This document shows, in pieces, positions 16,037 to 17,965 of a stretch of 64,000 nucleotides of DNA. Each line of letters opens with the position of its first letter. Positions within the stretch are counted from its first letter, which is position 1. Position numbers and translations under genes: made by a program. Below the pieces are notes generated by a model. It searched no databases. It was not told the origin of the DNA and saw nothing but the letters and a program-made list of their open reading frames with translations. Source of the stretch: Desulfobacterales bacterium (GTDB lineage: Bacteria > Desulfobacterota > Desulfobacteria > Desulfobacterales > JAFDDL01); NCBI GenBank assembly GCA_034003325.1, contig JAVEYW010000007.1:124001-188000 (forward strand). The letters are read 5' to 3'.

Positions 16037-16600
16037 ATATGATTTTCCTAGGTAATTCGTTACTCTTTTTTCCCCCCCGTTAACGGGAATAAAATACTGT
16101 TTTTGGCTTTATAGCACGGCAGGCGCCGGATCAAAATCCCTGAGGGCGGCCAGTTTTATCGCTATGAAAATACCGTGCCAGCGATTCGATTTCAGTGGTT
16201 ATTAATTATATTGAAAACAGACGATATTCGTTAAAAAAAACAGCTTTTAAGAGATTCATTGTTTTTCGACAAGCGGGTATCAATGATAGATCCCCTTAAA
16301 ATCCCTAAAGAAACGTCACCCTCCGCAGAATCCGATTTCAGGAGGGGGAACTGTGTCAACAAGATAATTTTTATTGTATATCCATATCATTACAAATTGT
16401 TAACAACTCATTGGCCCTTCACCTTCAAAACACGGTTTTTCCGGATTGACACTTATCCCTGTTTCCCCTAAAACCCATCTCGTTGTCACGGAAGCAATAA
16501 TAAATCGGCAGTATCCTTCCAAACTGAAAATTTTCCGCTCTTTAGCGGGTCTCATCTGAAGCAAAAATTATACCCGAATTATTCTCTAACGGAAAGCGGT
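16037..16600. other. Intergenic region upstream of dnaA
   Basis: 564 bases, AT-rich in the middle (around 16195-16260 and 16360-16400). It holds a good housekeeping promoter at 16446-16474 and a short hairpin CCGCT/AGCGG near 16541-16555 in the dnaA leader. I found no cluster of TTATCCACA-type DnaA boxes, so there is no positive evidence for a classical oriC. A 70-codon open frame at 16259-16471 has no recognisable features and is not called. Confidence 0.5.
16446..16474 (+). promoter_or_regulatory. Predicted sigma-70 promoter for dnaA
   Basis: A perfect -35 TTGACA (16446-16451), a 17-base spacer, and -10 TAAAAC (16469-16474, four of six). The leader to the dnaA start would be about 125-130 bases. 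Confidence 0.5.
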
Positions 16601-16609
16601 TTGAAACTG

Positions 16610-17965
16610 ATGGATTCACTATTTCAAAAAGTCAAGGCTGCCTGTAAACAACAACTTCCCACACACGCGTTCAAAATGTGGATCGAGCCGATCGAGTTTA
16701 GTAATATCGAGAGTAATCAGCTCATTCTCGGCGCCCCAAATTTTTATATCAAACGCCGGTTTCAGGATCAGTTCGCAGGGCTTGTATTGTCCGAGTGGGA
16801 ACACGCCACCGGCATGCGCATGAGCCTACAGGTGGACGTCCTGAAAAACAATGGAAAACAGGCCGTAGAGCCTACCGGCGCCGAACCAAAGGCGCCGATA
16901 CAGCTGGCGCTGCCCGGTATTCAAGTCAAACCGTTCAGCGGTCGCCTGTTGCGAAGAGATTTTACCTTTGACCAGTTTGTGGTCGGCACCAACAATGATT
17001 TTGCCTTTTCCGCGGCCCTGGCCCATGCCTCGCGCAAAGTGATGGATCAGAATCCGTTGATGCTCCTGTCCCAAACCGGCATGGGGAAAAGCCACTTATC
17101 CCAGGCAGTCGGGCACCATATTCTTTCTGAAAGGCCCCATGAGCGGGTGTTTTATATGACAGCGGAAGATTTTACCAACGAGATGGTACAATCCTTGCGC
17201 CAGGACTGCATCGACAAATTCAAAAAAAAATACCGGGACCATTGCGATGTTCTTTTGCTTGAAGATGTGCATTTTCTGAGCGGTAAAACACGTACGCAGT
17301 CCGAACTGGCCGCCACCCTGGATTATCTGAGCGATACGGGCAAAAAAATTATTTTTTCCAGTTGTTTTTCTCCCGTGGAGATTCCGAAAATTTCGGATTC
17401 ACTCAGATCACGGCTCTCTTCAGGCCTGATCACCCGGATCGATACGCCTAATTTTCGAACCCGGGTCCGTATTCTTCAGAAAAAGGCAAAGGCTAAAAAT
17501 CTGAATATTCCCGACGATGTCATCCATTATCTGGCCGGAGAGTTGTCGGAAAACGTTCGGCAACTGGAAAGCGGACTCATTGGTGTTTCGGCAAAATCCT
17601 CCCTTTTAAGCAAAGAGATCGATTTGGATCTGGCCGAAAGCGTGGTCAAGCATATTACCAGCCAGCGACAAACCATCACGGTTGAAAGCATCAAGCAGTT
17701 GGTATGCAAGCAATTCGGCATCAGCGCCGCCGATATCGCCTCCAAATCCCGCAAGCAGCATATTTCACGGCCAAGGCAAATCGCTATGTATCTTTCCCGT
17801 AAATATACGGACTCTCCCCTTCAGACCATCGGCAGGAGTTTTAACCGCTATCATGCCACCGTCCTTCATGCTGTCAACCTGGTTGAATCCGGCATCAAAG
17901 ACAGCGGCGTGCTCAAGCAACAGGTCAACTACCTTGTCGACAAACTGGAGCGGGGTGTATTCTAA
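16610..17965 (+). CDS. dnaA: Chromosomal replication initiator DnaA, divergent
   Basis: About 451 residues with all four DnaA domains: a domain I like MDSLFQKVKAACKQQ, a short linker, an AAA+ core and a C-terminal helix-turn-helix. The P-loop is SQTGMGKSHL (first glycine replaced by serine), Walker B is LLLEDVHFLSGKTRTQ (E-D instead of D-D), the arginine-finger segment is LRSRLSSGLITRI and sensor II NVRQLE. The DNA-binding motif, usually GRDHTTVLHA, reads NRYHATVLHA. No dnaN follows; the next gene is an FAD oxidase. TTG 16601 is an alternative start. It could be the sole initiator of this lineage or a paralogue. Confidence 0.85.
   Translation: MDSLFQKVKAACKQQLPTHAFKMWIEPIEFSNIESNQLILGAPNFYIKRRFQDQFAGLVLSEWEHATGMRMSLQVDVLKNNGKQAVEPTGAEPKAPIQLALPGIQVKPFSGRLLRRDFTFDQFVVGTNNDFAFSAALAHASRKVMDQNPLMLLSQTGMGKSHLSQAVGHHILSERPHERVFYMTAEDFTNEMVQSLRQDCIDKFKKKYRDHCDVLLLEDVHFLSGKTRTQSELAATLDYLSDTGKKIIFSSCFSPVEIPKISDSLRSRLSSGLITRIDTPNFRTRVRILQKKAKAKNLNIPDDVIHYLAGELSENVRQLESGLIGVSAKSSLLSKEIDLDLAESVVKHITSQRQTITVESIKQLVCKQFGISAADIASKSRKQHISRPRQIAMYLSRKYTDSPLQTIGRSFNRYHATVLHAVNLVESGIKDSGVLKQQVNYLVDKLERGVF

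Follow-up and report, generated by a model that had tools for sequence, protein, structure and literature searches.

The dnaA gene at positions 16610 to 17965 of the window, the 64,000-nucleotide stretch of a Desulfobacterales contig that was analysed, most likely encodes the sole, orthologous replication initiator of its genome, a variant in DNA recognition that is shared by the whole order and serves an origin located at dnaN and equipped with TTATNAACA boxes.

Domain structure and recognition residues of DnaA

The gene starts with ATG, lies on the forward strand and codes for 451 amino acids. In a profile search, its product matched the Pfam domains DnaA_N, Bac_DnaA and Bac_DnaA_C above the curated cut-offs and the NCBIfam equivalog TIGR00362 with 415 bits (cut-off 344). 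The arginine finger motif reads LRSRL, and by sequence and alignment its R267 (counted without Met1; 17411–17413, + strand) is equivalent to R285 of E. coli. These results agree with the original prediction, which was made from the sequence and stated that all four domains and the arginine finger are kept. The altered motifs that it listed are present in the ORF as well, namely the P-loop SQTGMGKS (17069–17092, + strand), the Walker B motif LLLED (17252–17266, + strand) and the recognition motif NRYHATV (17843–17863, + strand) at the N-terminus of the recognition helix, in which Tyr stands for Asp433 and Ala for Thr435.

The base-contacting positions of DnaA are 399, 423, 432–435 and 438–439 (PMC5043019, PMC7561715), of which R399 of E. 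coli makes a minor-groove contact (PMC5742627) and residue 423, a proline in E. coli, a base contact (PMC5043019). In an alignment to solved DnaAs, these positions are occupied by R, Q, R-Y-H-A and L-H. The Arg equivalent to R399 (17750–17752, + strand) is invariant in the order sample, and the Gln404 (counted without Met1; 17822–17824, + strand) found at the position of Pro423 is invariant in 15 order members; this P423Q change was absent from the original prediction and emerged from the alignment.

Domain IV was modelled by AlphaFold2 with fair confidence (pLDDT per block mostly 75–90), and this part of the model superposes with 1J1V, the DnaA-box complex of E. coli, at 1.4 Å and a TM score of 0.92. 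The AAA+ part of the model was poor and left out of the analysis. In comparison with DnaA of E. coli and B. subtilis (TIGR00362; 8BTG, 1J1V), the four domains, the AAA+ module with its arginine finger, the equivalents of R399, R432, H434 and H439 and the fold of domain IV are common to both, whereas the protein described here carries P423Q, D433Y and T435A, lacks one residue just before the recognition motif (F-NRYHATV versus FGGRDHTTV in E. coli), opens its P-loop with Ser and has E-D in Walker B. Furthermore, its gene is unlinked from dnaN and oriC, and the box is TTATNAACA and not TTATNCACA.

Copy number and conservation in the Desulfobacterales

A profile search of the genome (4.62 Mb in 46 contigs, 97.6% complete) gave a single match to PF08299 and a single full match to Bac_DnaA, and it revealed no canonical DnaA elsewhere. 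The count of dnaA homologues, which had been proposed as a check, is one full-length gene. A second, weak Bac_DnaA match was rejected as another DnaA, as it is the IS21 helper IstB.

Within the order, a DnaA match was obtained in 54 of the 58 genomes searched, this genome included, and almost always as one full-length copy. The motif NRYHAT was present at 28 of the 30 order loci read, the remaining two having KRYHAT and NRYHGT. Among 80 named loci of GTDB genomes, a set that overlaps partly with the 30 loci and whose titles are mostly Desulfobacterales, Desulfobacteraceae or Deltaproteobacteria, 77 had a readable motif: 70 NRYHAT, four NRQHAT and single cases of NRYHGT, NRYHST and KRYHAT. Asp at position 433 was found in none of these 77 loci, and the E. 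coli-type combination of D433 and T435 is not a feature of Desulfobacterales DnaA. LLLED (62 of the 80 named relatives read) and the P-loop form LLSxTGMGKSHL are likewise usual among the order relatives read. The residue pattern is the norm of the Desulfobacterales and neither due to chance nor peculiar to this genome, an outcome that the original prediction had itself named as speaking against its proposals.

One of these proposals was a paralogous, DnaA-like regulator with another binding site, in which case a canonical DnaA would be the real initiator. The altered motif and the missing linkage to dnaN are compatible with such a paralogue, and two distant genomes of the phylum do hold a dnaN-linked DnaA together with an unlinked DnaA of the NR type. 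However, there is a single DnaA in the genome, nearly all searched members of the order have one full-length DnaA of the NRYHAT type, and the product exceeds the cut-off of the DnaA equivalog model, so that a paralogue is very improbable. Since it is the only full DnaA of the genome and its residues are normal in the order, the protein is the orthologous initiator and not a second paralogue.

Location of the replication origin

The statement that dnaA is unlinked to dnaN was confirmed: dnaA is located on contig C7, whereas dnaN lies on contig C2 (C2:156961), ahead of gyrB. In the relatives, both genes are on separate contigs or at least about a megabase apart wherever both were found. The GC skew, which had been suggested for placing oriC, is mainly negative before dnaN and positive after it on C2, and there is no skew switch at dnaA on C7. 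Sampled along a closed relative (G010), the skew stays above zero over the first 2.2 Mb and below zero between 2.4 and 4.42 Mb, with sign switches near 4.42 Mb, the position of dnaN, and near 2.3 Mb, while dnaA is located at 1.23 Mb within one arm. The GC skew of a near-closed relative (G048) was too noisy for placing the origin. As the skew switches at dnaN and not at dnaA, oriC is located at dnaN-gyrB, away from dnaA, in the genome under study and in the closed relative.

The candidate for oriC is an intergenic region about 1.2 kb before dnaN (C2:155262-155808; L035:18263-18808) that contains TTATCAACA, TTATAAACA and near-boxes. In a scan of 444 kb of the genome for TT[ATG]TNAACA, the 550-bp window with the most matches was located there, and the dnaA promoter, with a palindrome that is scored on both strands, was a runner-up. 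With the strict pattern, the dnaN region of the closed relative showed no cluster of boxes.

A gene pair is located between the oriC candidate and dnaN (L035:18809-19958), likewise in much of the order. In other order members, the core of boxes and trinucleotide repeats lies immediately before dnaN.

DnaA boxes at the origin

The 21 segments of the order that cover dnaN-side origins contain 31 copies of TTATNAACA, which has A at box position 6 (A6), compared to 2.3 expected (14-fold, in 14 genomes), and three copies of TTATNCACA, which has C at this position (C6), compared to an expectation of 0.8. In the regions ahead of 30 dnaA genes, the respective numbers are 26 versus 2.3 and two versus 0.9, the expectations in both cases being derived from dinucleotide shuffles. 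For the regions upstream of the 77 named dnaA genes, where the expectations are based on base composition, 109 copies of TTATNAACA versus 7.8 expected were counted in 68 of the 77 regions, and nine of TTATNCACA versus 4.8. A few C6 boxes persist in the Desulfobacterales, and in the order segments TTATNCACA is near chance at the origin as well as at the dnaA promoter. The variant with G at position 6 was found eight times (0.8 expected), at dnaN origins only. The single-base variants of the box show strict requirements at positions 1, 2, 7 and 9 and none at position 5, and position 3 also accepts T or G. TTATCCACA, TTATNGACA and TTATNTACA were discarded as order consensus, being not or weakly enriched. 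A description of TTATNAACA-type boxes for Desulfobacterota was not found in the open-licence literature, and an earlier description elsewhere is possible.

The alignment of the order origins revealed the core GTTATTANNN-TTATNAACA-spacer-(TTA)n with the repeats TTA, ATA and ATT. Two co-oriented boxes, a short spacer and at least three DnaA-trios, the layout known from the basal unwinding system (PMC8287927, PMC10721633), are present in most of the 21 genomes, on the dnaN side, where the skew switches in the genome under study and in the closed relative. The differences from this system are the A at box position 6 and, in the genome under study, a degenerate trio-side box (CTGTGAACA).

According to the proposed mechanism, DnaA would bind boxes of the consensus TT(A>T,G)TNAACA via its altered recognition helix, with Gln, Tyr and Ala at the positions of Pro423, Asp433 and Thr435 and with R399, R432, H434 and H439 kept, and it is predicted to favour TTATCAACA and TTATTAACA over TTATCCACA. 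Upstream of dnaN-gyrB, a pair of co-oriented boxes whose starts are about 10 bp apart would recruit DnaA, which may then assemble on the adjacent trinucleotide repeats and open the duplex as in the B. subtilis basal unwinding system.

The DnaA boxes of Thermotoga maritima are 12-mers, AAACCTACCACC. Its DnaA (2Z4R) likewise lacks D433 and has a short F-NR motif (FNRSHPVV in the alignment), but its boxes are another sequence, whereas the Desulfobacterales keep the 9-mer frame TTATNNACA. Because the order is devoid of D433, has an origin located at dnaN and relies on a different box, standard origin prediction would likely fail in Desulfobacterales.

The region upstream of dnaA

The reported lack of a canonical box cluster upstream of dnaA holds, as TTATCCACA does not occur anywhere in the 64-kb window. 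The missing TTATCCACA cluster at dnaA is explained by an origin located elsewhere and by the use of TTATNAACA in the order. The copies of TTATNAACA at the 77 named dnaA genes are mostly in one orientation and have two preferred places, near −200 and −330. A role in autoregulation is probable for the copies at these two places. In the window, the place of the order-wide box at about −200 is taken by the palindromic DnaA-box-like site TTGTTAACAA (copy TTGTTAACA), 213 bp before the ATG (16397–16406). A probable dnaA promoter was found on the forward strand at 16446–16474 with the −35 hexamer TTGACA (16446–16451), a spacing of 17 bp and the −10 hexamer TAAAAC (16469–16474), and the layout in relatives, GGTTTGACA-N17-TTAAAT, matches it. 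Further upstream, a remnant of a conserved element with the consensus GGATaTgctTAAAATnctTA is located at 16289–16312 on the same strand. An RNA element upstream of dnaA was not detected in an Rfam search.

In 48 of the 77 named loci (e.g., L165, L173 and L181), AGAWWW hexamers with a spacing of exactly 10 bp were observed at about −360 to −400, beside the −330 box. In total, there are 77 AGAWWW pairs at distance 10, 41 at distance 20 and 15 at distance 30, with about 2.7 expected. At most a remnant of this array is present in the window, near 16210–16250. The array was rejected as a series of literal DnaA-trios, because its period is 10 and not 3.

The order shares a conserved, AT-rich stretch upstream of dnaA in which two boxes and a phased array of 10-bp repeats are found. 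It could itself be an origin, which would place oriC at dnaA. This is highly unlikely, however, given that neither contig C7 nor the closed relative has a GC-skew switch at dnaA and that the core of two boxes, spacer and trios sits at dnaN. The region upstream of dnaN-gyrB remains the preferred location of oriC.

DnaA residues and box sequences across the phylum

For a comparison across the phylum, 40 loci from other families were used together with 30 genomes mostly from families that score low against the Pfam HTH model. In the dnaA flanks of canonical DnaAs with the motif GG[KR]DHST, 30 C6 boxes (17-fold enriched) and 39 A6 boxes (14-fold) were found. In the order with Y433, A6 is enriched 13 to 14-fold and C6 about 1.5 to 3.5-fold (composition-keeping shuffles). 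The Desulfobacterales have lost C6 boxes rather than gained A6 boxes, and the shift is one from C or A to A alone, since canonical D433 DnaAs elsewhere in the phylum use both. As A6 is equally enriched beside D433 DnaAs, the use of this box does not by itself presuppose the changed residues. The second proposal of the original prediction, an initiator whose box consensus has changed, is borne out in part: both the dnaN-side origin and the dnaA promoter of the order carry TTATNAACA instead of TTATNCACA, but A6 boxes also accompany canonical D433 DnaAs, so that a link between this shift and the residues is plausible rather than proven.

That P423Q, D433Y and T435A caused the loss of the C6 boxes is plausible, with the chances about evenly balanced. 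In a tree of the AAA+ domain, most DnaAs of the phylum belong either to a canonical clade or to an F-NRxH lineage that includes the Desulfobacterales, with two changes for Y433 and five for D versus non-D. A test of independent pairs that set residue 433 against C6 boxes comprised 2 to 4 pairs only (p = 1); the change was too rare to be tested phylogenetically, and for this reason the causal link between residues and boxes is unproven. Neutral drift, with residues that changed without a response of the boxes and a common A6 box that was fixed by chance or base composition, would agree with this lack of support and with the about equal use of A6 and C6 in canonical relatives. It is nevertheless a less likely explanation, as the enrichment of C6 drops from the canonical relatives to the order while that of A6 stays at the same level, and as Y433 and A435 hardly vary even across deep divergences.

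For Epsilonproteobacterial DnaA-box pairs, a clade-wide shift in preference (T5) was attributed to the N-terminus of helix 5 (PMC5043019). A clade-wide change in box preference is common to both groups, but the Epsilonproteobacterial pairs keep the 433–434 dyad and the C at position 6. The question of initiator-replicator specificity was left open for other clades (PMC5043019), and the natural variation described here lends itself directly to testing which box base is read by which DnaA residue.

Tentatively, two DnaA lineages may be distinguished in the phylum, although this scenario is rather uncertain: a dnaN-linked one with GG[KR]DHST that would read TTATN(C/A)ACA, and an unlinked one with F-NRxH[SA]T, a free position 433 and diverged boxes (TTATNAACA in the Desulfobacterales, TTTTC(G/A)ACA in the family f94). 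The Desulfobacterales would have swapped the linked for the unlinked DnaA and re-tuned their origin, and rare genomes with two DnaAs would represent intermediates.

In the family f94, an array of TTTTC(G/A)ACA with steps of 9 to 12 bp was observed ~50–250 bp before dnaN (L288, L286), and these origins are paired with NRTHST and NRNHST DnaAs. The divergence of the f94 boxes fits a co-divergence of residues and boxes in what is a small sample.

Two distant genomes, G174 (L299:2047-3381) and G147 (L298:1310-2620), each have a DnaA copy linked to dnaN-gyrB and an unlinked copy of the NR type. The linked copy is long-branched in G174 and has the motif DRNIST and an altered P-loop in G147. Both genomes are possibly intermediates of an initiator replacement, or mixed assemblies. 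Furthermore, two genomes of one family, G072 and G204 (L295, L296), contain a second, long-branched DnaA with the motif GRNHTSI besides the canonical one.
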